From: Absidia repens
Lineage: Eukaryota; Mucoromycota; Mucoromycetes; Mucorales; Cunninghamellaceae
Direction of reading: 5' to 3'
Length of the DNA stretch: 64,000 nt
Assembly (NCBI GenBank): GCA_002105175.1
Contig: MCGE01000055.1
Coordinates: forward strand, 67,001 to 131,000
This document shows positions 6,816 through 58,944 of this stretch, piece after piece. The notes beneath the pieces were generated by a model. The model saw only the letters and a program-made list of their open reading frames with translations. It did not search any database and was not told where the DNA came from. A program made the translations under genes and the position numbers. Position 1 is the first letter of the stretch; each line of letters opens with the position of its first letter.

Positions 6816-7929
6816 TCAGTAAAGGTGTGTACTCCAAGATTTCATTAATTGATCATTATAGAATACATCAGGGATGTGATATAGCTTTAACCGGTTTCCA
6901 TGCATGACTTTTAATTGAGGATTGTCGGTTTTGTGTTCCTTTATGGTGTATACGCCTTTCTTGTGTACTTGATGAATAATATACAAACCTTCCCAGTTGT
7001 CTGATATCTTTCCAGACCATGAGTTAGGTTTAATGCCTGTAAATAATGTAACTACAGTATGTCACCCAAATTAAATGGTGGTTTCCATTGTCGTTGTACG
7101 GCCATTACTTTCTTGTCAACAGCTTTCTTTTGGTTTTCTTGTGATTTCTTAATCATTTCTGCAGCGTCTTCTCGTATCTTTTCCAAAATAAGCATTTCTT
7201 TTTTTGAACGCGAGATCCATTGATTTTGAAATGAAGCTGAATTTTTTTTTAACGATTTGTCGATCATGTTGTCGTAAGGTGTTCGTGCTTCTATGCCATA
7301 TGTAAGGTAAAACGGAGAGTATCCTGTTGATGACTGTTTTATCGTTCGGTATGCAAACAACGCAGCTGGTAAATATTCATCCCATACTGGTTTTTCTTTT
7401 GTTGTAATTTTCTTCAAAATCGATCCAAGTGTCGAATTTAGTCGTTCTATTAGTCCATTTGCTTGTGAATTTCCAACTGTAATGGTTTTATGGTGTATGT
7501 TGTAATGAAAACAAACTGATTTGATCAGTTTACTCACCATAGGTTTTCCATTATCGGTGATTAAAATGTGCATTGTACCAAATCGGGTTATCATGTCGTA
7601 AATACTGTAAATAATGCAATTTCCGCTGTCGTTTGATATTTTAATGCTTTTGCTTCCACCCATTTGGTGAGATAGTCGATTGCTGCGACAATGTATCTAT
7701 ATCCATTTTTAGATGTCGGTACATGTTTCACATCAATTGCCCATTGATGAAAAGGTTTAGATTTGACCGGAATAGGGTTTAGAAATTCATTCAGGGGCTT
7801 TGGACCAGTAGTTTGGCAACGTTGACATTTTTTGACATAATTTTGTACGTCCTTCGCCATTGATGGCCAATAATATTTGTTATAGGTTCTAGTTGTATCC
7901 AATCGTCCTTGCTGACGACATTCCGCCAA
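6816..7929 (-). pseudogene. Ty3/gypsy integrase relic broken by two 5-bp insertions
   Basis: Reading leftwards from 7929, the sequence shows the CC half of the integrase zinc module ('CQRC'), the catalytic core start ('WAIDVKHV'), 'ITDNGKPM', and 'NSQANGLIERL' with the expected D, D and E residues. It then runs to a C-terminal region with an integrase-like 'W.G.Y.I' pattern ending at a TGA at 6816-6818. The frame is broken at 7603-7609 and stopped at 7052-7054. Both breaks coincide with a TACTGTA/TACAGTA heptamer, and removing 5 bp at each makes the frame continuous. This integrase differs from the intact chromovirus at 475-5343 and lacks a visible chromodomain. RT and RNase H of the same element are missing. 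Confidence 0.85.
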
Positions 7930-8297
7930 ACTCCCCGAAAGGCATCAAATAGTCTGTGCTCTTGTAGGGTTGTTCGAGTGAGTTGGCGTAACAGTCCTTG
8001 ATAATTATTTGGTCGAGGGTTATACATGCTATGAGCCAATTGTATGATATGTGGCACCACCTGTTGCGTCAGTATATCAGACTTCAGCATACGGGCTCTG
8101 CGTTCTTGGTACCATGCTTCATAGTAATCCTTTAGACTTGTGTTCACCATGATATAGCTATGCGCCAGTGTTTCCAAGGTGGTTATAGGCCAGGTTGACA
8201 TCATAGTGACTGATTCAGGAGGGGCATCACTTTCCTCTGATGACACTTGAGCAGGGGAGTAGGGGGGTGTAAGGTACGCTTCACCTTGTTGTTGCAT
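7925..8297 (-). CDS. Unrecognised protein, partial, same family as 6222-6702
   Basis: From the ATG at 8297 the frame encodes about 124 plausible residues: a Pro/Ser/Glu-rich start and then a helical region ('YYEAWYQERRARM', 'QQVVPHIIQLAH', 'NPRPNNY'). Near 7925 it runs into the antisense of the integrase relic, so its true C-terminus is lost and the remaining codons to 7791 are fusion artefact. The 'VP.I.QLAH....RP' pattern matches the protein at 6222-6702. No catalytic motif is recognised. It starts just outside the MITE at 8320, which may have displaced its promoter. Confidence 0.45.
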
Positions 8298-8319
8298 GGT
8301 TTGTTAAGGAAAATCAATG

Positions 8320-8922
8320 GGTTGAAAGTCAAAATAGACACTCCATAGTAATTTGAATTCCAAATTAGTAGACGGAGAATGGGTTTATCCGGCCGAGAGT
8401 GGTACCGATCGACGCGCAATTGTTTAGAGTATGTTACACATAAGTTTAAAATTCATTGGCCGACATTTTTCGTAAATCGAAAAGTGGCTTCAAATGTCTA
8501 ACTTTATACGTACGTTACACCAATCGAAAGTGCTTGTAAAACTACATATTCTGATGTAGTTTCAAAGTTATTCGAGTTGAATTAACAAATTTATGACTTT
8601 ATTTCTGGAAAATGAGAAAATGACAATTCAGGTTTCATTATTTTTTTTTACTGATTTCAGATTTATTGAAAAATTAAAGATGTCGGAACGGGTTCCAAAT
8701 TTCAGGAACAAACGTCCGTGCGCAGATCGACACAGGGAACACAAATAGATCGTCATTTAAGCCACTTTTCGATTTACGAAAAATGTCGGCCGATGAATCT
8801 TAAACTTATGTGTAACATACTCTAAACAATTGCGCGTCGATCGGTACCACTCTCGGCCGGATAAACCCATTCTCCGTCTACTAATTTGGAATTCAAATTA
8901 CTATGGAGTGTCTATTTTAACC
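8320..8922. mobile_element. Non-autonomous DNA transposon (MITE) with ~170-bp terminal inverted repeats
   Basis: 8320-8490 and 8755-8922 are inverted copies starting GGTTGAAAGTCAAAATAGAC. The right tip has lost about 7 bp. The loop is non-coding. A second copy with the same tips lies at 61966-62614, and the left tip of the larger transposase-bearing element at 60675 is related. No clear target duplication is seen. Confidence 0.85.
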
Positions 8923-8936
8923 TTGATCCTTTACCA

Positions 8937-9060
8937 ATAATCCATTATCATCATAAAAATTTATTATTCCAATATTCGCTTCCCATACTTTTACTATAAA
9001 AACCCACTATCATTTTATTTAATAAAAACCATATCTGTTATATAGTACTCAAATTATTAC
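8937..9060 (+). repeat. LTR fragment (LTR-C type)
   Basis: Matches the 3' half of the LTR-C copies at 26739-27162 and 39062-39425 (TTATTATTCCAA..., 'actataaaaaccca', 'taataaaaaccata'). Both ends are degraded. Confidence 0.65.
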
Positions 9061-9104
9061 AAAGTGTTTGCTTGTCCTTGCTTGAATGGATTTGCAGTAG
9101 AGGG

Positions 9105-9559
9105 TGTCGTATCATGAATAAAAATGTTCTGCCTGAATAATCAGCAGAGCGGCATTTGAATAAATTCAGGTACCAATTAATCATTTATCCATTTCAAAAC
9201 CAAACCAATGATCTCTACATAAGATGTGAACATACACTTACAGTATCATGATTCTTTTTATTTGTAATCATTATATTTGTAATCATTATGATATGATTTA
9301 TAATCCTTATAAGAAAACCAATGAAAAAGTTTTCTTACTAGTTCCAATTGTATTAACACCAATCATGATCAAATAACCAACATCATAGATTACCCGGTCT
9401 CAAACATTATTTTATTTTTATTTTGTATAAATAGTCTCTAGTATTTTATTTTTATTTTTATCATTATTATCAATATAAATCTAAAATAAAGATAACAAAG
9501 AATCTCACTTATTTTCTTACGTCTTTATTTTTTTATTATCACAAACACTACATTCAACA
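9105..9559 (+). repeat. Solo LTR (LTR-D family)
   Basis: A 455-bp solo LTR starting TGTCGTATCATG and ending TTCAACA, flanked by a perfect GAGGG duplication (9100-9104, 9560-9564). It contains a 5-bp insertion at 9241-9245 that the D copies at 27916 and 29199 lack. Confidence 0.92.
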
Positions 9560-9632
9560 GAGGGTCAAAAAATGTTTTCCCCTGAATCGGATTTGAAATG
9601 TACTTTTTTGTTTACTTGACTTGTAGTCTTGA

Positions 9633-9800
9633 AAATAGAGAGCACCAAATATCGAAATAAATTATTTGATATAAGTAGAAAGTACTAGATATATTATTGG
9701 TAATAAGTAGTGAGCACCAGAACTTTTGTAGATAAATTTCAACTTGAAATAAAAGAAGTTTTGAAAAGAAAACTTGATAAAATAAAATAAAGTAGAAGGG
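9633..9800. repeat. Dispersed repeat, uninterrupted paralogue of the chromovirus target
   Basis: Matches 1-114 joined to 5818-5880, with only one GTAGA at the junction. It therefore represents the pre-insertion state of the chromovirus site. Confidence 0.8.
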
Positions 9801-9802
9801 CT

Positions 9803-10525
9803 AATGTGTAGTATACAGTATGTTCTCACCCGATTTTTTTTTTTTTTTTTTAAAAATAATATTTTCAGGTCACACATAATTTGTATTACATACCATTCAT
9901 CAATATAATAAAATAAAAACGTTTTATTTTTAAAATTCTGTATATGTACTATTTCTGACATTATCGTCATTATATTGCATAGATATGTTTTTTAGTGCTT
10001 CTATGAAACTGTTCCATTCGTTATTATTGTTTTTTCGTCTCCAAATCCAGTTGTAGTATTATAGAATACGTTTTGTTGAATTAGCCACCGAAGTGTTTCT
10101 TCTTTATTTCGACATATAGATGTTATTTCCCAAATATCTGGATTAGATGTCATTCTATCAATAATAATAAAAAATGTGTCAATAACCGGACAGGATATAT
10201 GTAGTATATACAGTATAACAAAGATAATCTTACATAGATTGAGTATTCAATTCAAGGAGATCAGAGATAGAGAGCAGAGATAGTTTATTGTTAAGATAAA
10301 TAACAGGATAACAGATATTGAAATAAAACTAGAGTTATTTATAATATTTGGAAAGTATGGCCGCCGAGAGGTCGGGTAACACAAATGGGCTTAGCTACCA
10401 AGATTTTCAGGGAGTACAAAAGATAGGGGAACTGAGAAGGACAACGGATATATGTTTCTCCTTGTATTTACTATTATATTTATAATCCAGAACTTATTTT
10501 TGAGGTGAGAACATATACTACACCT
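9803..10525. mobile_element. Small element with ~20-bp inverted ends, host to an LTR-E fragment
   Basis: GTGTAGTATATGTTCTCACC at the right end (inverted, about 10505-10525) also occurs at the left end (9804-9828), where 5 bp are inserted at 9816-9820. The ends interrupt the dispersed repeat that resumes near 10540. No ORF of note is present. Assignment to a transposon family is not possible. Confidence 0.5.
10177..10442 (-). repeat. Partial LTR (LTR-E family)
   Basis: Inverted match to the LTR at 63196-63514 ('gattgagtattcaattcaaggagatc', 'aacaggataacagat', 'ggggaactgagaagg'). It starts TGTCA at 10177, and its other end is truncated. A TACAGTA heptamer lies at 10209-10215. Confidence 0.7.
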
Positions 10526-10589
10526 GATCCATAAACTAAGACAGTGATTTGGTGATTAAAAACCTTTGTACTGAATTTTATAAAAAATA

Positions 10590-11195
10590 TTGAAAATGCT
10601 TTGTCTCCGTGCCCTACAAAAAAATGTCCTTGGCTCCTTCCACGGAAACTCTTCCCCTGGTGACCTTCCTGCTACAGCATCTGAAGTTTTGAAGATTGCC
10701 AACAAGGTCAGCCGCCAAAAGCGCTCCTTCGGTGATGATGATGTGGTCCCCCACAAGAAAAAGAACTCTTCGGGACGGCACAACAAAAATTTATATTGCA
10801 GCCACCACGGCTCTGGCTCCAACCATTCGTCTGCCAACACCATCCGCAACCCTTGCTATCATTGAAAGAATGTCACTTGGCTCCCTCAGCATGACAAGGA
10901 ATGCCCGGTAAAGCAAGGAAGCCTTTTGTCCATTCACTCGGTCTACCTTTGGCTAACCATCCTGCTGACTCTGCTATTATGGATTTGAATGAATCTACGG
11001 AAGCTATACGAGTGCAAGCTCACGATGACTCTATGACAGGTAACACACCTAAAAAATACTGTACATCAATGCAATCACACAATCATCTAATACAAACTAT
11101 GTTTTTCCTCTTTTACTACAGAGTAAACAAGCCATGGCTCTACTAGACACCGGCGCAGATATATCAGTGATTAGCATAGATTTTTTTAACGAAAA
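10590..11195 (+). pseudogene. Decayed Gag-protease of a chromovirus related to the intact element
   Basis: The translation aligns with the intact Gag at 475-5343 from the capsid C-terminus (LQKNVLGS... ~ LREQVMAA..., 'VLKIA', 'QKRSF', 'YCSHHG') through a degraded zinc knuckle ('CYH') to the protease ('LLLQSKQAMALLDTGAD'). Frames change at least twice. One change coincides with a TACTGTA at 11057-11063; deleting 5 bp there joins 'TPKKY' to the protease-proximal part in one frame. The protease site is DTGA rather than DSGA. RT onwards is missing, because sequence after 11195 is unrelated AT-rich DNA followed by the Helitron relic. Confidence 0.85.
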
Positions 11196-11269
11196 AATAA
11201 TATTTTATTCAAATAAAACAAACAAATCATGATTCTACCCCCTAAAATTACTCTACATCTAGTGGGGAA

Positions 11270-13101
11270 AAAAAAAAAACTATACGAAGCTACGACAAAA
11301 CACATTTGTTACTTGACTGCCCGTGAAGATGTTGATATTTCTACATTGATATGCGAGTCGTATCGTTGGCTAAGATAAGGATTGTATGGAACGACATGTC
11401 GATTATCTGCCCGGAAACGTGTCGAAGTCAAAAAAATGAGAGCGCAGCCATTTTGTCGACGTTCTGTAAATAGGATATCCGTCAGAGTTCAGCTTGGTTT
11501 CGGAATTGAAGGCGCTTGGGGTACCCATTCTTGCATTTTCCATCCCTCATACACGTTGCATCTGGTGACAGTACTGTAGAGTTGAGGATGATGCAATTGA
11601 TCAGGGATTTCGCAAGTATACACACTGGTCGTTATTCGTCAGGCGTGCTGGGTCCGATCGAGGAAATCCAGGATGAGAGAATGATGTGAATATGTGGTAG
11701 ACCCCATTTTTGGAATTCGACCGTTCCAATATATCCAGAGACTTGGCCAAAGCATTCTTTTTCCCTCGATGACATTTGATGATGAAGTCCCGCCCCTTTT
11801 ACCCGAGAGGCAAAATGTCCGGTCGATCGTATTACAAGTTTGGCGCCCTCCGGAAGTGTCACGCCATCATTTTTGGCCATTTCGGGTTGCACGTCATTGT
11901 GATGAATAATGTTGGCTTTCTGTTGTAACCAAATAAAATTATATATATATACTAAAAACCTGTTTATTGCATAATAAAAGATAAGATAAATAAAGAGAGG
12001 GGAGGAGACAAAAAGTGCTTACCGTTATATTGACAACCGGTTTCGAGTAAGAGTAAAATAATAATATAAGGCAGAGAAAAAGGGAAAATATAAATAAAGT
12101 CTAAATTCTAAAAATGGGAGTCGGAGTAAAAGAGGATCGCTTATCACAACACTTTCCCCTTTTGCCGAATCATAACCAAGTCATTCCTGAAGCATTTGCC
12201 GCATATATCGTGCGCCCCTTCCCAATGTGTCGTGGATTTGAATCATCGCCCATGCTGTTGTCCATTTCCGCACGAAGCTGCTTTTTTTGGTTGTCGGAGA
12301 GATATTTCAGTCGGTGGCTTTCGATTCGAACATAATGGTCCACTAAATAGTGTTGAAATAACCGTCCAAAATGGTGTATATAATAACCTTCACGTGTCAT
12401 CATCATGTACGCACAGTAAGCACGAAGTGTCGCATTCGATTCGTCGTCTGTATCTGAAGTCATGCCTGTAAACCAACCTTCAGCACATAGTGAAGCGGCA
12501 TGTACGATGGATGCAAGGAGTGGATCAATTGGAGTCCTGAGGTTCTATCACGAATGACTATGTCGAATGGAGTGGCAATACCGTCAGTGCTATCTTCAAC
12601 AACCATAGCCGCAATTTCAGGGTAGCATCATCGTATTGTTCAAAGGCAGTCATAAGGTTCCGAGCAAAGGGATTCTAATGATGGGATTCAAATGGGAAAC
12701 CAAAGATGTCCGAGCCAGAAGCTGATCTTTCCGCATCCGCAAAAGTATACTTGGGTGAATTCCGTTCGGTCGTTGATGGGTGTTCGAAGAGAGCCGAATT
12801 TGTGATATATTGTCCCATTGATACAAAATGCTGGATTTGGGGAACGGTCATTGTTGTTGTTGCGGATAGGGATAGGGTCATCGGCTTTGGTATTGACCAT
12901 GGAGGCAAAGGCAAACAAAGTGTTGTATGGTCTAATATACTTGTGGAAGTCGGCATTTGTTGAGCTAGTACTGTATGGTCCAAAAGCATTTCCAGAAAAG
13001 GGTAAAAGGCAACTTGATCTTGCCACTGGTGCAACATAAGCCGAATTTGCGGGGGTTCCTTTCAGAATGATTGCTGTTAACCGCGCGTTTGGCCACATCA
13101 A
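11270..13101 (-). pseudogene. Helitron Rep/helicase-like N-terminal region, heavily decayed
   Basis: Reading leftwards from 13101, three regions typical of Helitron proteins occur in the expected order. First, an N-terminal block 'IRPYNTLFAFAS ... GTIYHKFGSL ... FTQVYF' (about 12700-12960). Second, 'GRLFQHYLVDHYVRIE...NQKKQLRAE' (about 12250-12400). Third, the Rep endonuclease with its two-histidine motif 'GLPHIHII' (about 11680-11700), then 'CMRDGKCKNGYPKR' and 'YDSHINVEI' near 11300-11540. Multiple frameshifts and stops break the frame, and an LTR-F copy is inserted at 11921. TACTGTA heptamers occur at 11572 and 12969. The Rep tyrosines and the SF1 helicase part are not seen, so the copy is inactive. 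Confidence 0.85.
11921..12151 (-). repeat. Solo LTR (short LTR-F variant) inside the Helitron relic
   Basis: A 231-bp sequence starting TGTTGTAACC and ending ACAACA, flanked by a perfect CTTTC duplication (11916-11920, 12152-12156). It resembles 27422-27608 and more distantly 34230-34511. Confidence 0.82.
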
Positions 13102-13299
13102 AGCTTCACAGAATGGCCATTGGACATTTTTTTTTTTTGCAGGTAAGATGGACCTTCATCATAACATACAGTAGACATGCTGGAGACATAATTGAACAAT
13201 AAAAAAAAAGCACGAGGAAAAAATCAGGTACGCAACGACTTTCACGCTCGAATTCAATTCCCGTTGTGCTCATAATAGATTGTCAGAAAAAATAGTGAT
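13102..13299. other. Unassigned AT-rich DNA
   Basis: No gene or repeat is recognised. A TACAGTA heptamer lies at 13167-13173. Confidence 0.5.
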
Positions 13300-13595
13300 T
13301 GTAATATTTGATGAAATAGAAGACGTTATAAAAAATAAGTGATATAACAGATATGGTTTTTATTGAATAAAATGAGGAAGGGTTTTTATAATAAAATGGG
13401 AAAAAGAAGGCTGTGCTAGTGGTGGCTGTGGATATGGTCGAAGAATGGTAATTTGAGGCTATGGGAAGTTGGTTATCTGTAGATATAAGTATATATGTCT
13501 AAGTAGTGGATACTCGAGGCTGTGTCTTATACCCGTATAGGAATGACAAGTGTGATAGTGTGGGAAATGATTAGTGACAGATGACAAATACGACA
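13300..13595 (-). repeat. Solo LTR (LTR-A family) with perfect target duplication
   Basis: Inverted copy of the chromovirus LTR with a few substitutions, 296 bp, flanked by GTGAT on both sides (13295-13299, 13596-13600). It records an older insertion of the same family and loss of the interior by LTR-LTR recombination. Confidence 0.95.
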
Positions 13596-13599
13596 GTGA

Positions 13600-14230
13600 T
13601 CACTTGCGAGTAAAAAAAAAACCAACAACATTGTAACAGGGATAAGGTGAAGTGATTGGAGGAAAGGTAGGAAATTTTAAAATCATAGATGGCTACCTTA
13701 TGTAATGTTTGGTAGTAGAGTCAAAGTTATATTTTTATTTCAATAAAATGATGGAAGGCTTTTAAGGTCTCTCTCCTCTTTCATTTTGGGACCACAATCA
13801 ACCACCCTCTTCATCTCACCGCACATGGATCTTTTCCGTCATTCTACTAATCCCAACCATACAGACAACTTCAGACCCATTATTTCGTGGTTACAGGTCA
13901 CACCGCCCAACGTTGGAACCCTATCCTTTTTTATATCGCACAGTCAGAATAGTTTATAGAATAGCTTTACCACCCCATTGTATAGTGAAAATAAAAAACT
14001 TTTTATTGAATCATGACTTGATCATAACAGTCAACACTATACTAATGGGAATGAAATGTGAATAAGGGAAACTAATCTAAAAGAATGGTGTAAAAAGTGT
14101 CTGAAAAAGGAGTGAAGTATAGAAAAGGGGGAACTACTGTAAAAGAATGGTGTAAAAAAGGTCTGAAGAAGAAACAAAGTGTAAAAAAAAAGTGATCTCT
14201 AAAAGGGATCTGCAAATTTCTAATTAAACA
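13600..14230. other. Non-coding DNA with an imperfect ~75-bp tandem duplication
   Basis: Near 14045-14190 the text 'ctaaaagaatggtgtaaaaa..gtctgaa' occurs twice in similar form. No coding region is recognised. Confidence 0.5.
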
Positions 14231-14234
14231 AAGA

Positions 14235-14455
14235 CAAGTTTTATTGAAGCATATACTGTATATGTTTTATTGAAAAAAAAAGAGACAAACTAAGCTAATC
14301 ACGACATTCCCCAAGTTAGATTCAAAATGAAAGGGTTTCCCCATGCATCTTGTAATCCCTTTTCTGAAAACCCTTCTAAACTAGTCCTAACAGAAAGCCA
14401 AGACCACCAGGTCTACAACGAGCCAAAAACCGTGACGAAAAAATAATTTTTCATT

Positions 14456-14491
<36 letters not shown>

Positions 14492-14560
14492 GAAAATGGG
14501 GAGATGCCGCTTAAAAATAATTCAGGCTGGGCGGGGTTTTATTTCAAATCCCATCAAAAA
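14235..14560. repeat. Dispersed repeat H, copy 1
   Basis: Closely matches 19190-19560 ('gagacaaactaagctaatcac', 'ggtttccccatgcatcttgtaat', 'aacagaaagccaagaccaccagg', an AGAG tract, 'gatgccgcttaaaa') and more weakly 35805-36130. It has no ORF. A TACTGTA at 14254-14260 is absent from copy 2. Confidence 0.8.
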
Positions 14561-14691
14561 AACAATCTGAAGGCCAGGTCTTTTTTGCAATGGTTGAACA
14601 CTTGAAAGATAGATAGATCCTTTTATAAGAGTGCTTGATTAGAATGATAGTAGTTGAACGGAGATAATTGAATGGTCTTTGCAATGTTTGC

Positions 14692-14936
14692 TGTAATAGA
14701 GAATAAGTGAGACAAAGTTATATTTTTTTATTAAATAAAATGACAGTGGGTTTTTATAGTAAAAGTATGGGAAGCGGATGTTGGAATAATAAATTTCTAT
14801 GATAATAGATGATTGTAGATGATAATGGATTATTGGTAGAGTTCGAGTTGAGGGAAGAAAATAATGTGTTATAGAATAGGTAGATGATTCATCTTTGATA
14901 TTGATTGCAGACCAAATAAAACATAGCCAGTGGTTC
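14692..14936 (-). repeat. Partial LTR (LTR-C family)
   Basis: Inverted match to 39062-39425, from TGTAATAGAG through 'gggaagcggatgttggaataataaa' to 'catagccagtg', then truncated. A short forward LTR-C 5' piece follows (14937-14967), into which LTR-B appears to have inserted. Confidence 0.7.
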
Positions 14937-14967
14937 GTATTTGTCATCCTCTATATTTTATTATAAA

Positions 14968-15285: not shown

Positions 15286-15413
15286 GAACATCAATCGAAA
15301 TAAAATATATGTCAATTATCATTTTTATTCGTATGTGCAATACATTTCGCTATAGACTAAAATATAAACTATCTACAATGCAATAAAGGTAACTAATTAT
15401 ATACATGGAATAA

Positions 15414-17146: not shown

Positions 17147-17152
17147 TCTGGT

Positions 17153-19189: not shown

Positions 19190-19560
19190 ATCATTGAAGT
19201 AAAGACAAGTTTTATTGAGGCAAAGACAAATTTTATTGAGGCAAAGACAAATTTTATTGAAGCAGAGATATGTTTTATTGAAGAAAAGAGACAAACTAAG
19301 CTAATCACAACACCCCCCAAAATCCTAGAATCAAAATGAAAGGGTTTCCCCATGCATCTTGTAATCGCTATTCTCAAAACCCTTCTAAACTAGTCCTAAC
19401 AGAAAGCCAAGACCACCAGGTCCACAACGAGCCAAAAACCGTGACGAAAAAATAATTTTTCATTAAAAAAAAAAGGAAAGAAAGAGAAAGAGAGAGAGAA
19501 AATGGGGGATGCCGCTTAAAAAATAATTCACGCCGAGCGGAATTTTACTTTCAATCCTGT
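19190..19560. repeat. Dispersed repeat H, copy 2, with internal 24-bp tandem units
   Basis: Matches 14235-14560. Within it (about 19195-19287) a unit of roughly 23-24 bp, 'aaagacaa.ttttattgagg', is repeated about four times; copy 1 has fewer units. Confidence 0.8.
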
Positions 19561-19664
19561 CACAAAAAAATCTGGAGGCCCGTCAACAAAAAAAAAAATC
19601 TGGAAAACCTACAGCTATAATAACCCGCCCCTACACTTCAGTATAGCTTACAACAGTAAAATTG

Positions 19665-26447: not shown

Positions 26448-26738
26448 TGCAATATTTGATATAAAATTAGTGATAGTACATAACAGATGCGGTTTTTATT
26501 GAATAAAATGGGGAAGTATTTTTATAGTAAAATGGGGAAAAAGAAGGCTATGTTATTGGGGGCTGTGGATGTGATCGAAGAATGGTAATATGGGTGTAAC
26601 TTGGGGTTTGGCTCTCTGTAGATATAAGTGTATACAATATGCCTGAGTAGTGGATACTTGAGGCTGTGTGTTATACCCGTATAGGAATGACAAGTGTGAT
26701 AGTGTGGGAAATGATTAGTAACAAGTGACAAATAAGGC
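26448..26738 (-). repeat. Decayed solo LTR (LTR-A family)
   Basis: Inverted LTR-A starting TGCAATATTTGATA and ending near 'gtgacaaata', with the last bases lost. It abuts another LTR. Confidence 0.8.
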
Positions 26739-29198: not shown

Positions 29199-29629
29199 TG
29201 TCGTATCATGAATAAAAATGTTCTGTCTGAATAATAAGCAGAGCGGCATTTAAATAAATTCAGGTACCAATAAATCATTTATCCATTTCAAAACCAAACC
29301 AATGATCTCTATATAAGATATGAACACACACTTATCATGATTATTTTATTTGTAATCATTATGATATGATTTAAAATCCTTATAAGAAAACCAATGAAAA
29401 AGTTTTCTTACTAGTCCCAATTGTATTAACACCAATCATGATCAAATAACCAATATCATAGATTACCCGGTCTTACAGTAAACGTTTTTTTATTTTTATT
29501 TTGTATAAATAGTCTCTAGTATATTATTTTTATTTTTATTATCAACATCAATATTAAATAAAGATAACAAAGAATCTCACTTATTTTCTTACGTCTTTAT
29601 TTTTTATCATACAAACACTATATTCAACA
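29199..29629 (+). repeat. LTR-D copy at a deletion within the LINE
   Basis: A 431-bp D-type LTR. Left flank ACCCC and right flank ACTAC are different LINE positions about 640 bp apart in the intact copy. A 5-bp insertion at 29476-29480 is absent from the D copy at 27916. Confidence 0.9.
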
Positions 29630-44896: not shown

Positions 44897-45235
44897 ACTG
44901 TTTTGATCGTCCCAATGTTTTTTTGTTTTTTTTTTTTTTTGTGATGTTTAAGCGAATGAGCTCGTGTCATCCTTCAGGGAAAGATGTTGTATAAAATGGC
45001 TGTTTTATTGAAAATCCGGGTGTGGACAAGGTCCGCTACAATCCTAAATTGGGAGACTATGACAACAGTACAAAAAACCAATTCTATTGTTGTACAGTAT
45101 CACATGTTTTTGTAGTATAATATCTTCTCGTTGGCGAAAAATTATATCCTCAGAAATTATCTTCTAATAGATTTTTTGTGGGTGGACCCAAACAAATATA
45201 GTATTATTATATTTTTTTTTAAAAATAAAAACTTT
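44897..45235 (-). mobile_element. LINE 3' tail with GGACCTTGTCC hairpin, and a 5'-module scrap
   Basis: 44925-44960 holds a T-run next to the LINE 5' module (complement CGCTTAAACATCAC). From 44985 the sequence 'tgtataaaatggctgttttattgaaaatccgggtgtggacaaggtcc' matches the 3' end of the LINE at 47048. A TACAGTA at 45093-45099 is absent there. Truncated near 45135. Confidence 0.65.
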
Positions 45236-47047: not shown

Positions 47048-48084
47048 TTTTTTTTTTTTTTTTTTTTTTTTTGTATGAAATGACTGTTTTATTGAAAATC
47101 CGGGTGTGGACAAGGTCCGCTACAACCCTAAAATTAGGACACTATTACTACAATGCAAAAAAAAATAAAAATATATCTATTGTGTATCACATGTTTTTGT
47201 AGTACATGGATAGGGCTGTGTGCGGGCGCCAGATTTTCCTCCAGTCTTCAGTGTCAAAACTACATATCCAATGATAGGTCCAAATTGTTTCCATAACTCT
47301 GCTCATCCACGTCAAAATATCTGTGTCTTTTGTTGATGGTCGAAGAAGATGAGATTGGAGGACTTGTTGCGAGGGAGGGAAGGAAGGGCCAGGCCAAGTG
47401 TCCAACCACAAGTGGTCTTTCACGGGACATCCCAGAAAGAAGTGGACTTCGTCTTCAACCGCAGCGTGGCAGAAATTGCATATTGGATCAGGGGCATTGC
47501 GTACGGCGAAGCGGAATAGTCTTTCATTCGTGGATAGGGAGCCATGGAGGAGCCGCCACCAAATGGTCGTGCGTTTGTGGGACATGGGTAGTTTCCAAAA
47601 GGATTTCCATACTGCGGTTGAAAGGCGCCAGTTCAAAGGAATCGATTGTGGTATCATAGGAGGATCGATGTGCCAGAGATACTGGGGATGTAGCCATATT
47701 CGTAAGGTCCTTGGTTTCGCGGAGAGTACGTTGCACATATCGGTTGGCGATGTTTGAAGCTTCCAATTATCTTTGAGAGGATCTGTTCTTGGCGGGATTG
47801 GCAGTTTGCCAGCCAATACACACAGGGTCATCATGCATGGAATGGTTTTCAGAGTACACTTGATGATGTCAGTACGTTTGAGCAGTTCCATCCATGATTC
47901 CAGTCCAGTGTAATATTTGGTCAAGTCTTCGATCATGGGGGTACATATGTCTGAGGTCTTTCTGGTTCGAAAAATGCGTTGGATGTAGATCAGCTGGAGG
48001 GCAAGCTGCTGATGGTGAATGTTGACGACATTTAGACCACCAAACTGTTTCTTCAAACACGCCGTGTCCCATGATGGGAAGGGC
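47048..48084 (-). mobile_element. 1.04-kb 5'-truncated LINE with 13-bp target duplication
   Basis: A T-run at 47048 and later, hairpin region 'gggtgtggacaaggtcc', and an open ORF2 C-terminal frame 48056-47187. Flanked by CGGGCTCTTGTAG (47035-47047, 48085-48097). Confidence 0.92.
47187..48056 (-). CDS. LINE ORF2 C-terminal part, open but truncated
   Basis: About 289 codons covering the region after the RT: 'FGGLNVVNIHHQQLALQLIYIQRIF', 'IPCMMTLCVLAGKLPIP', 'TTIWWRLLHGSLSTNERL', the zinc-binding 'CNFCHAAVEDEVHFFLGCP', and a C-terminal 'WTYHWICSFDTEDWRKIW'. RT catalytic residues are absent because of 5' truncation at insertion, so no activity is expected. The lack of frame breaks suggests a fairly recent insertion. 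Confidence 0.85.
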   Translation of the reverse strand: MKKQFGGLNVVNIHHQQLALQLIYIQRIFRTRKTSDICTPMIEDLTKYYTGLESWMELLKRTDIIKCTLKTIPCMMTLCVLAGKLPIPPRTDPLKDNWKLQTSPTDMCNVLSAKPRTLRIWLHPQYLWHIDPPMIPQSIPLNWRLSTAVWKSFWKLPMSHKRTTIWWRLLHGSLSTNERLFRFAVRNAPDPICNFCHAAVEDEVHFFLGCPVKDHLWLDTWPGPSFPPSQQVLQSHLLRPSTKDTDILTWMSRVMETIWTYHWICSFDTEDWRKIWRPHTALSMYYKNM

Positions 48085-49382: not shown

Positions 49383-49431
49383 AGAAGAACCTTAAAAGAG
49401 AAAACAGAGGGATATGAGAAGAACCTTAAAA

Positions 49432-50350: not shown

Positions 50351-50474
50351 AAACTCTTTCGCTTAAACATCACTTTTTGAGCGGATAAACATTTAAGCGA
50401 ATACAACACATCGATTAGCAACTACTTCTCCAGCAAAGAAGAACTATCTATCCAGAATAGCAACGGTCTATAGA

Positions 50475-51857
50475 ATGACTACGACTTGGAGCGACATTGT
50501 GGCTCGAGGACAGATGATGAAGGTCCCATCTCAGACACCACATCGGGATGGGCAAATGTCACAAGAATACCTGAAACTCTACGAAATTGAAGAATATGCA
50601 GACCTAATGAAAATACACAGGGCTGAAAGTGTACTGGAAATGGCTCTCCATAGCAACACTGTCATTTTTGAATTCCTCTCAAGCGATTTCGAAAATCCTC
50701 GAGATGTGTATAGCAAACTGTCGAAAGACTTGGGAACCCTGACAGGGGCTCGAATTATCAAACCAAACATTGGACGAAACACAGGCACCTTTATGGTGGA
50801 AGCTCGTTTCGAAACGCAACAAATTGTGAACAGCGCGATCAGCAAGGGTATTGAAGTAAACGAAAAACAATATAAAGCGATACCATCAAGAAACGAAGAC
50901 CGGCTCCCCAAAATGGTAAAAGTTCACGTGGTCGGAGTACCTTTCGAAGACACCAAGGAACTGACGGCCTCACTAAAATCATCACTGGCCCTATATGGCA
51001 AGGTATGCAGAATTATGGCAATCAAACAAGCAGGCGTGTTTGAAGGTGCGATCACCGCCCTGTTGGACACGGATCCGTCACAAGGCCAGTTTGAACCTCT
51101 TCAAAGGATGCTTTACATGAAAACGTGGGACATCTTCGTTCCAGCCAACTATCGAGGGCAACCCCCAGTTTGCTACCATTGTCGCAAAGCAGGACACCTA
51201 AAGAAGGATTGTCCTATTCTGGCAGCCCTTAAATGCTACCGGTGTCAAGGACACGGCCACATAGCGCGACACTGCCCCAATGACGGATTGACACCTCGCA
51301 AGAGCACTGCCAACCAAGATGACACACCTGTTGTTAAGAAACAAAAAACTGAAGAAAATACAAAAAAAGAAAAAAACATTGAAAATTCCGAAAAAAATGA
51401 AACAAAAGAGGAAAAAAAGGAAAGTGCCAGTGTACAATCAAAAGATGGCTATGACGCCCACCAAACAGGAGGGGGACGGTCCCCTAAGTTGTCAAGTAGC
51501 ATTAGTAACAGTAATATAGCAACCAAAAGTGCCGAAAAAGTTGTTGCAGAGGACAAGCAACATACTCTACATAAAGAGGAAGATACTCCCATGCCTTTGG
51601 CAGATAAACAAGTGGATCAGGACTCTGAGGCCAACAACAACGAACATCAAGGTACCCTGGCTTCAAAACATGCACCAATCACCATCAGAACCACTATGCC
51701 GGTTGACAGCCAGGCGGAAATGGTACAGACAGAGGAAAACCAGGAAACATTTATCACCTCCAGCAAAGAGGCGATGGAAATCAGTAAACGACATAAGAAA
51801 TCATCCAGCATCCCCAAGAGGACAGATAAATCGTCCTCCATCTCGAAACGATCATAA
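50475..51857 (+). CDS. LINE ORF1: Gag-like RNA-binding protein with two CCHC zinc knuckles
   Basis: 460 residues. The N-terminal half has a fold shared by all ORF1 copies in the window ('MKIHRAESVLEMALHSNTVIFEF', 'GARIIKPN.GR.TGTFMVEA', 'LPKMVKVHVVGVPFED'), compatible with an RNA-binding domain. Two knuckles follow: 'CYHCRKAGHLKKDC' (about 234-247) and 'CYRCQGHGHIARHC' (about 255-268), both C-x2-C-x4-H-x4-C. The C-terminal 190 residues are charged and low in complexity (Lys/Glu/Ser-rich). By analogy with LINE ORF1 proteins it should coat LINE RNA and help nuclear entry or target priming. The stop TAA is 3 nt from the ORF2 ATG, suggesting coupled or re-initiated translation. Confidence 0.93.
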   Translation: MTTTWSDIVARGQMMKVPSQTPHRDGQMSQEYLKLYEIEEYADLMKIHRAESVLEMALHSNTVIFEFLSSDFENPRDVYSKLSKDLGTLTGARIIKPNIGRNTGTFMVEARFETQQIVNSAISKGIEVNEKQYKAIPSRNEDRLPKMVKVHVVGVPFEDTKELTASLKSSLALYGKVCRIMAIKQAGVFEGAITALLDTDPSQGQFEPLQRMLYMKTWDIFVPANYRGQPPVCYHCRKAGHLKKDCPILAALKCYRCQGHGHIARHCPNDGLTPRKSTANQDDTPVVKKQKTEENTKKEKNIENSEKNETKEEKKESASVQSKDGYDAHQTGGGRSPKLSSSISNSNIATKSAEKVVAEDKQHTLHKEEDTPMPLADKQVDQDSEANNNEHQGTLASKHAPITIRTTMPVDSQAEMVQTEENQETFITSSKEAMEISKRHKKSSSIPKRTDKSSSISKRS

Positions 51858-51860
51858 ATT

Positions 51861-54800
51861 ATGACAGTACAACCACTACGCATATCAACCCTGAATGCCC
51901 GCAGCATTCTCAAAATCAATAACTCTCACAACCAACGAATGTACACGAAATTCTTACGATCCCCCTCAACCAACCCATGCGACATACTATGTCTTCAAGA
52001 TATCCACCCTACCCACGAAACATACCTTACAGACTCCACTATCCTCACCCTAGAACGCCTCTTCCCGAACACAACATCCATTTTCACTAAATATACTGCC
52101 ATTATCATTTTTAACCCCCTCTATAAGATTGACAATGCCAGCATCACCATTGACCAACGAATCATTACCGCCGATATTATCGATATCTCAACTTCCACCA
52201 TGGTATGCAGTATCGCCTCAATATACGCCCCAGCTCAAAAATCCGCCAGACCTCAATTCTATCAAGAAATGCAAACCCATCCCCTCCTCAATGACCTCTC
52301 AAGACAATGGATCCTTATGGGTGATTTTAATATACACTACTACCGTTCTCCACTCCCAGCATACCTGCACGATTGGTCTGTATGGCTCAAGTCACTTTTC
52401 ATCGATCCTGTCAAAGCACACAATCAAACCACATCCTCTGTATATCGTCCCCAAATTACCTATAGACAAGGCAAACAAGGTACCACGGTAGATTATATCT
52501 TCTGTCACCCAAGTCTCATGCCTGCCATAGGCAATACAACACAACGCTTTCTACTCCCATCCTTTACTGATCATGCTCAACTGAGTTTTGTGCTGCACAT
52601 TGACAAACCACATATAGGCCCTGGTGTATGGCGCTTTAACAATCAATTACTACAACAAGATGAGTTTCGAGAACTTCTTTTAAATACTTTGGACCGTTTC
52701 TTTGCGATGGAAACAGAAACAAAGTCCAAACAAAGCCAATGGGATACGCTCAAAGTCACTATCAAACGTCTTGCTATAGGATATAGTGCCGGAAGTACAC
52801 AGAAACGTCAAAATCGCCTGGCATCATTACACAAACAACAGATGGATCTTGTCCAACAACCTCAGATGCGCATGTCCGACAATCTGAAAGCAGTGGAAAA
52901 GGAAATCGAACGAATCACAAATGAGGAACTCGAAAAAATGATCGTGCGCACCAACACTACATGGACAGAAGCAGGGGAAAATAGCACCAAATACTTTTAC
53001 CGCACACTTAAAGCACGAACACAGCAAGTTACCATCAACCGGCTACGAGACCCGACTAATGACACCTACCACACTACTCCAACAGGCATCCTTCAACAAG
53101 CACGACGATTCTACCAGCACCTGTACTCTCCGGATCAGCAAGACCCCCATGCGGTACAGACTCTACTTTCAACTACTCCAAACAACATGGTTAACCAGAC
53201 CCAACAAGAGGAGCTACTTGCAAAAATACAGATTTTTACCGTAGAACAAGCGATCCGCACGTCCCCAACACACCGTAGCCCTGGTTTAGATGGACTCAGT
53301 TTTGAACTTTACCGGTTTCTACTTAGTCACCATCATCAGACCATCAATCTACTACGAGATATTCTCCAAGATGCACAAAATGGTATATTCCCTCCCTCAT
53401 GGCTGGAAACCCGTACAGTGTTACTTTTTAAGAAAGGGGATCGTGATCTCCTGGCGAATTGGCGACCACTCTCGATGATCAACTGTGATGCTAAACTATT
53501 CACCAAAATCATAGCTAACCGTATGCACGATGTCCTGCCTAAAATTATTAATCCATTCCAGACCGGATTTATGCATAAACGTCTCATCTCGGACAATGGA
53601 TGGGTAACTCAAGCTCTAACACACCATCTCCAACACACAGCTCCTGATGATCAATCTGTGGCCGTCCTGTTGGATCAAGAGAAAGCCTATGACAGGGTTC
53701 ACCCACAGTACTTAACACAAGTCATGCTCCACCTCGGTTTCCCGCAAGAGTTTGTCCATATGCTGATTAACATGTTTTTCTCGACAAATATACACATTTC
53801 CATCAACGGTTGGGTTGCGTCCCCCTTCACACAAGCCCGAGGACTCAGACAAGGCGACCCTCTCTCTCCCTTGCTCTTTAATGTGGCTTTTGAACCCATG
53901 CTAAGATCGATTTTGGCCAATAGTACCCTACGAGGCATCAACATCCCCAACACTATTCAATGGTCATCAAGCACAAACCTAGCCACAGATAAGGACGTCA
54001 ATATCAAACTACTCGCATACGCGGACGATTTGATTGTCTTTATACGAAACTCGCAAGAATGGATAGTACTCCAAAACCTACTCGCCAGATATGGACACGC
54101 CTCTAATGCCAAGATTAACCTAGCGAAAACAACTATGCTATCATTGACTGGTAATCCACACCCCCAATGGCAATCATTAATCCAAGATGACGGCATCACT
54201 TGGCACGACAAAACCACCTCCACCCCAGCAATATACTTAGGCTACCCCTTATACAGTACACCGGTACAACTATCCAATTTCCTAGAGGGAGTTACTAACA
54301 AGATACAGAACCACATCAACATGGTCAAAGCAAGAAACCTCTCGGTAAAAGGACGCTCACTGATAGTTAACTCATTATTACTGTCGAGACTATGGCACAT
54401 ACTTAGAGTAACAATTGTTCCTAAGGAATGGCTGAAGAAAATCAACTCCTTGATTAGATCGTATGTTTTCCCCTTCTACCCTCGCCCATCTTTGGATTAT
54501 GCAACCCGACCAAGGGAACAAGGTGGCCTAGGACTAATACATCTTCAAGACCAATATATTGCCTTACATAATGTCTACATCAAGAAAATATTGACAGACC
54601 GTCGGCCTAATCCACTGACAGGGGTTATAAACGTTCTCATACGCCTTTATACTGGCCATACTTCGGTGATCCCTTTCCTAATGGCGCCAAAACAATACTC
54701 GAAAAAGGTTAAGGCAGTCCCTCATCTGTACCACTTAACCCGACTCCTAGAACGACTCCCGCCGATCCTCCCGCCTAAAACGTGGACTCCGAGAATCACG

Positions 54801-55760
54801 CGGTACATTCCCCTACATTTGGTGTTCATCCCAGTAACGAACAGTCAAAGTCTCAAAATCGACTCAAAAGCCATTGTCCAGGACCTACTACCATATAATG
54901 AGCGGACTCAAACTTTTGCGCCAAACTACACCGCCTCGGACACCAAGTACAAAGCATTATGGCATGCATGGATGAAGGCCGATTATGAATGGGACCCTCT
55001 CATCTCCGACCAAATTAATAACATTCATGCCGACGTCGTCCACACAACACCACCCTACTTCACCATAGTGTCACTGAATCACTGGCAAATCACGATCCCG
55101 GTTCATAAATGGATCAAGAAACCTTTTGAAAGACTCGCCTACACGACCCCTACTGGCCAATTGCGAAGGGTATGGTTGGACATGGAATTGAACTCCCGGG
55201 ACCTGCCACCACCACCAATCCCGTATGCTCCTCCTCCTGCCTCCACTATGACAACAAAACAATGGAAAACTTTCTGGGGCCTCCCCATTCAGCACGCCGC
55301 ACGTACGGTATGGTGGCGCCTACTCATCAACAAGCTACCAAGTCAGGAAACGCTTAGACACATACGAACGCAAGACGAAAATCCAGGTTGGTGCCGCATA
55401 TGCGACAAAGAAACAGAAAGTGCGTACCATATGATCGCTGACTGCCCCTTGAAACGATCCTTTTGGGCATCAGCAAAATTCATACTGACCATAAAATCCA
55501 TTGACCATTGGCAAGCGCTGACCTTCAGATCACCGGTATCAAGCTGCACTCTGATTGCTTTAACAGACATTTTACTCACACTGTGGCGCTATCACTGGCG
55601 ATGTACCATTGACGAAAGAAACTGGAACAACACGCGAGCCATCCGTGCTCTACGTTCCCTCAAGTGGCTGAAAGGGGAACATTTTCCAAGTGACGCTTAT
55701 GTTGCTAGTAGGGAAGCAAAGATAGCCTCTCGATCGGAATCATTAGAAGATAATGCTTAG
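51861..55760 (+). CDS. LINE ORF2: APE endonuclease, reverse transcriptase and C-terminal zinc motif
   Basis: 1299 open codons. The N-terminal AP-endonuclease-like domain (about 1-240) shows 'LNARSI', 'CLQDIH', 'IASIYAP', 'LMGDFNIH', 'TTVDYIFCHPSL' and a final 'FTDHAQLSF' (the catalytic D-H pair). The RT spans about 450-850 with 'SPGLDGLSFELYRF', 'KKGDRDLLANWRPLSMINC', 'QTGFMHKRLISDN', 'LLDQEKAYDRV', 'GLRQGDPLSPLLF' and the catalytic 'YADD' near 720. The thumb and a long C-terminal region end with a Cys/His motif 'CRICDKETESAYHMIADC' (about 1178-1195) like the zinc-binding region of other LINE RTs. No RNase H is seen. The protein should nick target DNA and reverse-transcribe LINE RNA there. 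All key residues appear present. Confidence 0.95.
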   Translation: MTVQPLRISTLNARSILKINNSHNQRMYTKFLRSPSTNPCDILCLQDIHPTHETYLTDSTILTLERLFPNTTSIFTKYTAIIIFNPLYKIDNASITIDQRIITADIIDISTSTMVCSIASIYAPAQKSARPQFYQEMQTHPLLNDLSRQWILMGDFNIHYYRSPLPAYLHDWSVWLKSLFIDPVKAHNQTTSSVYRPQITYRQGKQGTTVDYIFCHPSLMPAIGNTTQRFLLPSFTDHAQLSFVLHIDKPHIGPGVWRFNNQLLQQDEFRELLLNTLDRFFAMETETKSKQSQWDTLKVTIKRLAIGYSAGSTQKRQNRLASLHKQQMDLVQQPQMRMSDNLKAVEKEIERITNEELEKMIVRTNTTWTEAGENSTKYFYRTLKARTQQVTINRLRDPTNDTYHTTPTGILQQARRFYQHLYSPDQQDPHAVQTLLSTTPNNMVNQTQQEELLAKIQIFTVEQAIRTSPTHRSPGLDGLSFELYRFLLSHHHQTINLLRDILQDAQNGIFPPSWLETRTVLLFKKGDRDLLANWRPLSMINCDAKLFTKIIANRMHDVLPKIINPFQTGFMHKRLISDNGWVTQALTHHLQHTAPDDQSVAVLLDQEKAYDRVHPQYLTQVMLHLGFPQEFVHMLINMFFSTNIHISINGWVASPFTQARGLRQGDPLSPLLFNVAFEPMLRSILANSTLRGINIPNTIQWSSSTNLATDKDVNIKLLAYADDLIVFIRNSQEWIVLQNLLARYGHASNAKINLAKTTMLSLTGNPHPQWQSLIQDDGITWHDKTTSTPAIYLGYPLYSTPVQLSNFLEGVTNKIQNHINMVKARNLSVKGRSLIVNSLLLSRLWHILRVTIVPKEWLKKINSLIRSYVFPFYPRPSLDYATRPREQGGLGLIHLQDQYIALHNVYIKKILTDRRPNPLTGVINVLIRLYTGHTSVIPFLMAPKQYSKKVKAVPHLYHLTRLLERLPPILPPKTWTPRITRYIPLHLVFIPVTNSQSLKIDSKAIVQDLLPYNERTQTFAPNYTASDTKYKALWHAWMKADYEWDPLISDQINNIHADVVHTTPPYFTIVSLNHWQITIPVHKWIKKPFERLAYTTPTGQLRRVWLDMELNSRDLPPPPIPYAPPPASTMTTKQWKTFWGLPIQHAARTVWWRLLINKLPSQETLRHIRTQDENPGWCRICDKETESAYHMIADCPLKRSFWASAKFILTIKSIDHWQALTFRSPVSSCTLIALTDILLTLWRYHWRCTIDERNWNNTRAIRALRSLKWLKGEHFPSDAYVASREAKIASRSESLEDNA

Positions 55761-55809
55761 AATAGGATGTCCCCTCCCCCAAACTCTAGCATAGCAACTA
55801 TTTTGCAAA

Positions 55810-55881
55810 TCAAATAATTGAAGCCCGTGCACGGGCCTTCAATTAAAATAAATTTATTTTAAAAACAAAAAAAAAAAAAAA
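55810..55881 (+). promoter_or_regulatory. LINE 3' hairpin and poly(A) tail
   Basis: ATTGAAGCCCGTGCACGGGC plus CTTCAAT forms a stem of about 13 bp with one bulge, then 'aaataaatttatttt' and an A-run. Equivalent hairpins precede the A-run in the other LINE copies, which suggests a template-recognition structure for the RT. Confidence 0.7.
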
Positions 55882-56403
55882 GACTATGCGACGACGGAAA
55901 TCACTGACCTTTTTGTGGTAGACGAACTCGCGGACCTCTTAAAGGTGCACAGAGCTGAAAGTATTCTGGAGATGGCACTCCACAATGACACGATTCTATT
56001 TGAATTTTTGACAAAAGACTTCTCGGACCCCACAGAAGTATATGGTCCAATGACTGCAAAGCTAGGAAAAATGGTAGGAGCCCGGATCATTAAACCAAAT
56101 AATGGTCGGAGCACAGGCACCTTCATGGTAGAAGCAAAATTCGAAAAAAAGGAAGCCAGCACGAAGGCAATCTCTGAAGGTATTCCCATTGGCAACCACC
56201 AATACAAGGGTATTCCAACAAGAGCTGACAACGGAGCACTACCAAAAATGGTCAAGATTCACGTGGCCGGAATACCATTTGAAGACTCCAAGGATTTGAA
56301 AGAAAAAATTATTGACTCCCTCAGCCCATATGGCAAAATTTGCAAAATCCCAACTTTGAAACAATGCGGGGTATTTGAAGGGGCAATTACTGCGCTCATT
56401 GAT
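55882..56403 (+). pseudogene. ORF1 of the older LINE, continued and truncated
   Basis: After the target duplication the frame continues 'ITDLFVVDELADLLKVHRAESILEMALHNDTILFEF' to 'QCGVFEGAITALID'. It is homologous to the intact ORF1 but clearly diverged. It is cut at 56403 by the palindrome-rich element; the residues after 'ALID' belong to that element. The zinc knuckles are lost. Confidence 0.9.
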
Positions 56404-57334
56404 AGGGCTCTTAATTTGGTCCCGTCCCGATTATGGTATTGAGAAAAAGTCCTCAATACCTGGTACCGATCAATACCAATACCTACTGGCGGTATTGTCT
56501 CGCTAAGGTTTTGGTATTGCTAATCCCGCTAAGGAGTATTGATCAATGCCAACTTTTATTAGTGGTACCGTCCCGCTAAGGCTTTGGTGTTGCTAATCCC
56601 GCTAAGAGGTATTGATCAATACCAATACCTATTAGTGGTATCGTCTCGCTAAGGTTTTGGTATTGCTAATCCCGATAAGAGGTATTGATCAATACCAATA
56701 CCTACTCATGGTACTGTCCCGGTAAGGAATTAATATTGCTAATCACGCTAACATGGTATTTTTCAATACCTATACTCCTCATTTAGGTATTGTTAAGAGT
56801 CCTACTGATGATGAACATTCGTTTACATAGCTTTATTATTCCTCCTACGCGTATCTCACTTGAAACAACCCCCTCTTTAGGTTTTAGATTGTTTTATTTT
56901 TTTTTTACTCGAAATAAATTAGACATTATTATTTATACAACATATCAACAACGTCGCTTTTTTTTTTTTTTATTGTTTGTCACAGCAACATGTATTGCTC
57001 AATACTAATAGTTATTAGTGGTACCATCCCGCTAAAGTTTTGGTATTGCTAATCCCGCTAAGAGGTATTGATCAATACCAATACTTAGAAGTGGTACCGT
57101 CCCGCTAAGGTTTTGGTATTGCTAATCCCGCTAAGAGGTATTGATCAATACCAATACTTATAAGCGGTACCGTCCCGCTAAGGTATTGGTATTGCTAATC
57201 CCGCTAAGAGGTATTGATCAATACCAATACTTATAAGTGGTACCGTCCCGCTAAGGTATTGGTATTGCTAATCCCGCTAACATGGTATTGTTCAATACCA
57301 ATACTCCTCATTTAGGTATTGTTAAGAGCCCTAA
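56404..57334. mobile_element. Element with inverted ends and two arrays of 73-bp palindromic repeats
   Basis: The left end GGGCTCTTAA and the right end TTAAGAGCCC are inverted, and an internal TTAAGAGTCC lies near 56786-56795. Between them, eight units of about 73 bp lie in two clusters (about 56470-56770 and 57010-57310), most containing the perfect palindrome GGTATTGATCAATACC. The 56796-57005 spacer is AT-rich. The flanks are ORF1 of a LINE on the left and a truncated LTR-D on the right, so target duplication cannot be read. No coding capacity. Confidence 0.8.
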
Positions 57335-57335
57335 T

Positions 57336-57537
57336 TAACACCAATCATGATCAAATAACCAATATCATGGATTACCCGGTCTTAAACGTTATTTCATTTT
57401 TATTTTGTATAAATAGTCTCTAGTATTTTATTTTTATTTTTATTATCAACATAAATTTAAAAAATAAAGATAACAAAGAATCTCACTTATTTTCTTACGT
57501 CTTTATTTTTTTATTATTACAAACACTACGTTCAACA
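57336..57537 (+). repeat. 5'-truncated LTR-D
   Basis: Matches the last ~200 bp of LTR-D ('ttaacaccaatcatgatcaaataac' to TTCAACA). It is followed directly by LINE RT sequence. Confidence 0.85.
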
Positions 57538-57540
57538 CCC

Positions 57541-58613
57541 ATGCTACGATCAATATTAGCTAACCAGACACTACAGGGTACCAACGTTCCAGACACAAAA
57601 CACTGGCAGTCAACAACTGACCTGGCACAGTCATCTAATGTGGGAGTCAAATTACCGGCATATGCGGACGATCTAGTGGTTTTCCTACGGACACCACAAG
57701 AATGGGATCTCCTGCAGCATTTACTCCAGCAATATGGGAAAGCCTCCAATGCGAAAATCAACTTGTCAAAAACCACTATGCTATCTCTAACGGGAAACAC
57801 TCATAAACACTGGACTGATATTACGACAGCGAAAGGTATCACTTGGCACAACTCGAAACATAACATGCCAGCCATATACCTCGGCTACCCAATATACACT
57901 TCCCAAAGCCAATTGGATAAGTTCTTAGACACCATATCCAACAAGATCCAAAACCACATAAATATGATAAAAGCACGAAATTTATCAGTCAAAGGTCGAT
58001 CGATTATATGCAACTCACTCCTCCTATCCCGACTATGGCATATCCTACGGGTCACCATAGTACCGAAACAATGGCTGCAGCACATCAACTCACAAATACG
58101 ATCATATGTATTACCGTTCTATCCTCGACCATCCCTGGCTTATGCAAGCAAACCAAGAGAAAAAGGAGGACTAGGTTTGGTCCACCTTGACGACCAACAC
58201 TTGGCACTCCACAACGTATACCTTAAAAAAATACTATCCGATAAACGTCCAAATCCACTCACAGGTGTGATAAATATACTCATCCGTCTACATACTGGAC
58301 ACAACTCAATTGTTCCCTTCCTACTAGCACCAAAGCAATACATCCAAAAGGTCAAAAATATTTCTCACCTCAAACACATTGCACTCCTACTACAACAGTT
58401 GCCATCGATTCCTATCTCGTCCACATGGTCAGCCCGAATAATACGATATATTCCCCTGAGCCGAGCCATCAAGGCTACTCCTGAATCGTACAACACGAAA
58501 TCCCTGAAAGTCGACCCACATCAACGGTCAAGGATATACACCCTTTTGAGGAAATCACCAACAGCTTTACCAAGACATATGATGATAGCCACACCAGATA
58601 CAAAAGACTGTGG
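57541..58613 (+). pseudogene. LINE ORF2 fragment: RT palm to thumb
   Basis: About 355 codons, moderately diverged from the intact ORF2. It contains the catalytic 'PAYADDLVVFLRTPQEW' (about 57656-57700), 'KINLSKTTMLSLTGN', 'AIYLGYPIYTS', 'KARNLSVKGRSIICNSLLLSRLWHI' and 'RPSLAYASKPREKGGLGLVH'. The endonuclease and early RT motifs are missing at the LTR-D junction. A solo LTR-B after 'TKDCG' territory (58614) interrupts it; the last residues before the stop belong to the LTR. Confidence 0.9.
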
Positions 58614-58944
58614 CGAAATGGATGTGAGATAATAAAAAGACAAGAGTAAAATAAGTGATACAATTGATATGGTTTTTTTTATTTAATTGATAAAATGTCA
58701 AGTCTTTTTATAATAAAATGAAGATATTTGTGGCTGTGGATGGGAGCATGATAACGGTGTATTTGAGACTACGGATAATTGAGGCTGTGTGCTATCTGAT
58801 GTGTTGAATGACAAGTGTGAGAATAAGTGGGGAATTCAGGGGTAAAAAATAGAGTGAAGAGATAAGTCGGATATACAAATGATGATGGCATACAGTAGAT
58901 GCTTTTGATGTAAATATTGCTAAGCAGGAACCAGGAATACGACA
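58614..58944 (-). repeat. Solo LTR (LTR-B family) inside the LINE
   Basis: 331 bp, flanked by TGTGG (58609-58613, 58945-58949). The first base of the TG end is mutated (CGAAATGG). It carries a 5-bp insertion at 58893-58897 absent from the B copies at 34893 and 41441. Confidence 0.95.

Follow-up and report, generated by a model that had tools for sequence, protein, structure and literature searches.

The stretch of DNA analysed here (the window, 64,000 nucleotides in length) belongs to the mucoralean fungus Absidia repens and occupies positions 67,001 to 131,000 of the forward strand of contig MCGE01000055.1. It carries repeated sequences, including retroelements and LTR-like repeats (LTR, long terminal repeat), whose copies differ from one another at several places by 5 bp. 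At such a place one copy has the heptamer TACAGTA or TACTGTA (together TACWGTA, where W is A or T) and its paralogue has a plain TA. An earlier note on this window had proposed that a Tc1-like family repeatedly inserted and excised here, and that proposal is supported by the CAGT-ended elements, the derived scars and the excess in paired comparisons that are described below. We consider it very probable that excision of Tc1-type (DD34E) cut-and-paste transposons left the 5-bp differences as footprints and that tandem stacks of the same unit, TA(CWGTA)n, were built by re-insertion of one transposase group, clade A.

All seven heptamers named by the earlier note were found where it had placed them. 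Six had been paired there with a copy lacking the insertion, and four of these pairs show a clean 5-bp TA-CWG-TA gap; the other two do not, the flank being altered at 14254 and the gap being 6 bp long at 45093. The seventh heptamer (54252-54258), which had been read as coding sequence of a long interspersed nuclear element (LINE), is indeed in frame with the LINE open reading frame (ORF). When the window was aligned to itself, clean 5-bp gaps were seen at 9239, 29474 and 58891, each against several copies. At 9814 all remaining aligned bases are identical to those of the inverted copy, and a further gap occurs against C51:133661-133868, C51 being the contig that contains the window. The partners of 14254 have different letters at the position of the left TA.

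A sample of 349,464 bases was also compared, consisting of C51 1-151000, C46 1-110000 and 27 further loci around matches to the Pfam domain DDE_3 (30 such loci minus 3 lying inside C46); the sample is non-random, as C46 and the loci were picked for their Tc1-type matches. There are 60 distinct places with a 5-bp insertion in the sample, of which 14 have the TACWGTA form and 3 the next commonest form, and one additional place contains TACWGTA with a longer overlap. The excess of TA-flanked CAG or CTG among 5-bp insertions and deletions, on which the earlier proposal had staked itself, is thus large. TACWGTA occurs 168 times in the sample and can be aligned to paralogues in 37 cases. The pairing that marks an excision footprint, a TA-CWG-TA copy together with a plain-TA paralogue, was found in 14 of these 37, compared with 3 of 936 alignable occurrences (2079 in all) of the 31 other TANNNTA classes (Fisher p 5e-19, counting the 14 sites as independent). 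Three of the 14, at 9239 and at the corresponding positions of L003 and L029, represent one inherited site, which leaves 12 independent sites. TAAACTA/TAGTTTA, which is also over-represented, has a plain-TA partner in 0 of 60 alignable cases. As for bare counts, the window contains 25 TACWGTA, compared with a mean of 6.3 +/- 2.5 and a highest value of 14 when its dinucleotides were shuffled 100 times, and a second-order Markov model puts the excess of the bare heptamer in the sample at 4.3 to 4.6-fold.

The polarity of the 5-bp form was read from copies throughout the genome, which comprises 47.37 Mb in 79 contigs; the copies counted are those with flanks that fit the search pattern. Of 31 such copies 1 has the scar at 29474 (19 have plain TA and 11 CA), and of 50 such copies 1 has it at 58891, so that at both sites it is the derived state. 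At 9239, CAGTA is exact in 20 of 37 copies, with decayed forms in 3 and plain TA in 14, and both the scar and the plain form occur on both neighbouring backgrounds when the copies are paired by eye; within the sample this site shows a 5-bp gap against four copies and the identical form in two. The earlier reading of the 5-bp form as an addition to an ancestral TA is therefore sustained at the two singleton sites and not at 9239, where the 5-bp form is the majority.

Candidate source elements are present elsewhere in the genome, in which DDE_3 has 41 matches, none of them on C51. As the earlier note had predicted, Tc1/mariner elements with CAG or CTG ends after TA exist, in the form of several families whose inverted repeats start with CAGT beside a TA. 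Their ends read CAGT...ACTG and are flanked by TA, although for elements other than L018, L019 and L020 this TA was a requirement of the search itself. The ends of L018, L019 and L020 are identical, and the sequences outside the TA differ. Ends of the CAGT type also characterize impala and mimp, which are fungal Tc1-type elements. The transposases P0001 and P0002 contain HTH_Tnp_Tc3_2 and DDE_3 over the curated cut-offs of Pfam, and the DD34E residues D145, D242 and E277 are conserved without exception in the 12 proteins aligned, with 34 residues between D242 and E277. The best solved relative of P0001 is the Sleeping Beauty transposase SB100X (E 3.6e-26); the only two relatives bearing an organism name, among the 120 listed of 1397, come from Parasitella parasitica and Circinella minor, at 44% and 41% identity, respectively. 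A source of the pogo/Fot1 type was sought through PF03184, which has no match in the genome but none in the control genomes either, so that its absence is not shown.

Two further Tc1-like elements, L010 and L011, have ends of CACTGG in place of CAGT. Elements with CACTG ends were considered as a scar source and rejected, in that the scars predicted for them, TACACTA/TAGTGTA, have a plain-TA partner in 0 of 27 alignable cases. At L029:612 and C46:18393 there are 5-bp insertions with CAGTG/CACTG beside TA and no second TA, which are possibly decayed or aberrant scars.

Clade A was defined as the transposases with at least 50% identity to P0001 over the main aligned stretch. Its members are those of L009, L012, L013, L016, L017, L018-L020, L021, L022, L024 and L028, with secondary matches in L016 and L022 at 46%; transposases outside clade A have at most 43% identity to P0001, over partial lengths. 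Both ends could be placed for eight clade A elements (L009, L013, L018, L019, L020, L024, L028 and C46:42095), and their flanks were compared with those of nine others. CWG lies beside the TA on 11 of 16 clade A sides and on 1 of 18 sides of the others (p 2e-4); a G preceding or a C following the TA was found on 16 of 16 and 4 of 18 sides, respectively (p 2e-6). All eight clade A elements have CWG on at least one side, compared with 5% of all TAs. Single scars in repeats have YATATR-like targets (14 sites), T lying beside the TA in 18 of 28 flanks and C in 2 of 28; twelve of these 14 sites have an exact plain-TA partner, and 14254 and L010:3104 have a weaker one.

Tandem stacks were then counted genome-wide. 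Windows of TA(CWGTA)3 number 233, compared with 1 in the reversed control, and two-unit windows number 855, compared with 26. A stack of n units yields n-1 two-unit and n-2 three-unit windows, and there are thus 622 stacks of at least two units (855-233). Their edges resemble clade A contexts, with G before the TA in 339 of 622 and C after it in 343 of 622 (55%), compared with a background of 21% and 19%, respectively, of the TAs in C51 and C46. At C46:42080-43463 a stack lies between two clade A elements, and another follows the second element. The paralogous pair C46:96791 and C46:102296 is 81% identical and differs by exactly two units. A prokaryote-wide scan for the stack pattern returned at least 120 stretches, a figure that gives neither a density nor a control.

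Positions of TACWGTA sites in the window, with the reading of each
Feature	Position	Strand	Basis or remark
TACAGTA scar in LTR-like repeat	9239..9245	+	common to a subfamily; may be ancestral or derived
TACAGTA scar	9814..9820	+	5-bp gap vs inverted copy near 10505
TACTGTA, probable scar	14254..14260	+	5-bp gap vs 19227-19580 and other copies
TACAGTA scar, derived	29474..29480	+	in 1/31 flank-matched copies
TACAGTA scar, derived	58891..58897	+	in 1/50 flank-matched copies
TACTGTA, probable scar in retroelement pol-like reading frame (7052-7663)	7603..7609	+	one plain-TA paralogue, 74% identity
TACTGTA, possible scar	12969..12975	+	one plain-TA paralogue, 78% identity, more mismatches alongside
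TACAGTA, doubtful scar	45093..45099	+	gap vs copy near 47178 is 6 bp, weak
TACAGTA, ordinary LINE coding sequence	54252..54258	+	in frame, ORF 51861-55760
TACAGTA from 3' LTR end and flank, probably chance	5809..5815	+	LTR pair 113-413 / 5512-5812 ends within heptamer

Beside the tabulated sites, 26633-26639 has TACAATA where nine alignments have a plain TA, a 5-bp insertion of like form with CAA; this is perhaps a decayed CAG scar. The window also contains two copies (8320-8932 and 61966-62617) of an element with inverted ends of ~175 bp, which start with GGTTGAAAG and not with CAGT. An inverted repeat with arms of 403 bp that are 91% complementary (60788-61190 and 61591-61993) reaches into the copy at 61966, and a tandem array with a 73-bp step occupies 56390-57364.

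Four other explanations were weighed, and the best of them, though unlikely, is that a host protein with a specificity degenerate at W binds the CWGTAC stacks as clusters of sites, to which clade A is attracted. The core is of the palindrome class, and C51 and C46 together have 22 CWGTACWG cores, of which 12 are without a TA on one or both outer sides, several of these being edges of longer stacks; eight rearranged cores have counts of 5-16, so that the excess of the actual core, at 22, is mild. Binding sites nevertheless leave unexplained both the presence or absence of 5 bp among repeat copies and the paralogues that differ by two whole units. We give a little less credence still to the view that terminal-repeat fragments, from transposons or from miniature inverted-repeat transposable elements (MITEs), make up the stacks. 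Families with CAGTA ends do carry TACAGTA at their own termini, and when the flanks of the 11 sample stacks of at least two units were read, 8 touched or adjoined a Tc1-type element end. Fragments of termini should have a fixed unit order, however, and the observed order is mixed; the three stacks without an adjoining element end (C46 79094, 96791 and 108165) have unrelated flanks, and a search with one clade A terminus (28 bases, at most 3 mismatches) returned 7 matches genome-wide, a count that covers that terminus only.

Growth of an ordinary pentanucleotide microsatellite by slippage is improbable, even though the period is exactly 5 and three homogeneous five-unit CTG runs (C27:55704, C34:1306599 and C45:993872) exceed the expectation under random mixing. 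Slippage duplicates the neighbouring unit, whereas the units here are mixed. Of the 233 three-unit windows, the 50 forward windows listed merge into 38 stacks, and in these the CAG and CTG units number 62 and 64; neighbouring units are alike in 44 of 88 cases, where slippage would have them identical, and 9 stacks are homogeneous compared with 8.1 expected. Genome-wide, homogeneous triples number 66 of 233, with 58 expected. The unit order is thus approximately random, which argues for independent excisions rather than slippage. Least credible of all is an ancestral 5-bp form that copies have lost through TA-to-TA deletion, which could appeal to the majority at 9239 but is opposed by the singletons at 29474 and 58891 and by the rarity of such loss where other TANNNTA have the same TA repeats (3/936, and 0/60 for TAAACTA/TAGTTTA).

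The interpretation of the 5-bp differences as Tc1-type footprints, with stacks built by clade A, suggests the following cycle. An element would insert at a TA, which would be duplicated, and its excision, for which we infer a 3-nt stagger, would leave three bases between the TAs, CAG if they come from one end and CTG if they come from the other. Clade A elements would re-insert at TAs within or beside earlier footprints, and every round of insertion and excision would add one random CWGTA unit, giving rise to a mixed TA(CWGTA)n stack. On this model, clade A would be expected to insert at TACWGTACWGTA in preference to a scrambled site. We also lean, with more reserve, towards the view that this Tc1 clade prefers its own excision footprints as targets, such that its visits regenerate and enlarge the landing site and the mixed units tally the excisions.

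Several observations weigh against this interpretation. The targets of clade A (GTAC) are unlike those of the single scars, and one family therefore does not explain both; single scars in repeat copies were probably made by CAG-ended families outside clade A, because their targets are YATATR-like and unlike the G-TA-C of clade A. Read from the copies themselves, the 5-bp form at 9239, the majority there, is a subfamily state that may be ancestral or derived. No empty site of its own was found for any element, and imprecise ends occur in L004 (one end) and in the C46:42095 element (both ends). Some stack units are the termini of elements (L009, L013, L018, L028 and C46:42080), so that n is overestimated at sites occupied by an element, and the five-unit CTG runs suggest that slippage adds some units. 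The stacks were seen in a single assembly. Lastly, the excess of the bare heptamer is small under a fifth-order Markov model (CTG 1.4-fold, CAG outside the top 15), and genome-wide the heptamer occurs 14011 times compared with 10593 in the reversed control (1.3x; the control differs in composition). The weakness of this count excess bears out the earlier view that paired comparisons, rather than bare counts, carry the evidence.

Cut-and-paste transposons, once gone, leave little record, and scars that survive in repeats can be counted, which allows past excision to be followed across the genome. Should the stacks represent repeated visits, they would constitute a self-renewing target site from whose sequence target choice and excision frequency could be read, as well as a new route by which a short tandem repeat arises.

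Among the open-licence PMC papers listed by the searches made, no title or beginning of an abstract deals with stacked mixed footprints. The Sleeping Beauty transposon is described as targeting TA and leaving 3-nt overhangs that are repaired by end joining (PMC7827188), with consensus footprints of TACAGTA and TACTGTA (PMC4378557). The scars reported here are likewise TACAGTA/TACTGTA at TA; unlike those of Sleeping Beauty, they form a record of past events in a natural genome, and mixed-unit stacks are not part of the Sleeping Beauty descriptions in the passages cited. For ZB, a zebrafish Tc1/mariner element, footprint lengths from zero to three bases have been described, together with a preference for AT-rich palindromic targets (PMC7913693). 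A Stowaway MITE in Australopyrum, in intron 4 of the Triticeae beta-amylase gene, is reported to have inserted again at the TA of a footprint left by a previous excision (PMC1925063). Here too, a Tc1/mariner-type element appears to have entered the TA of such a footprint; unlike the Stowaway case, which in the account cited concerns one locus and another footprint sequence, the present one involves several hundred loci and stacks that reach at least five units.

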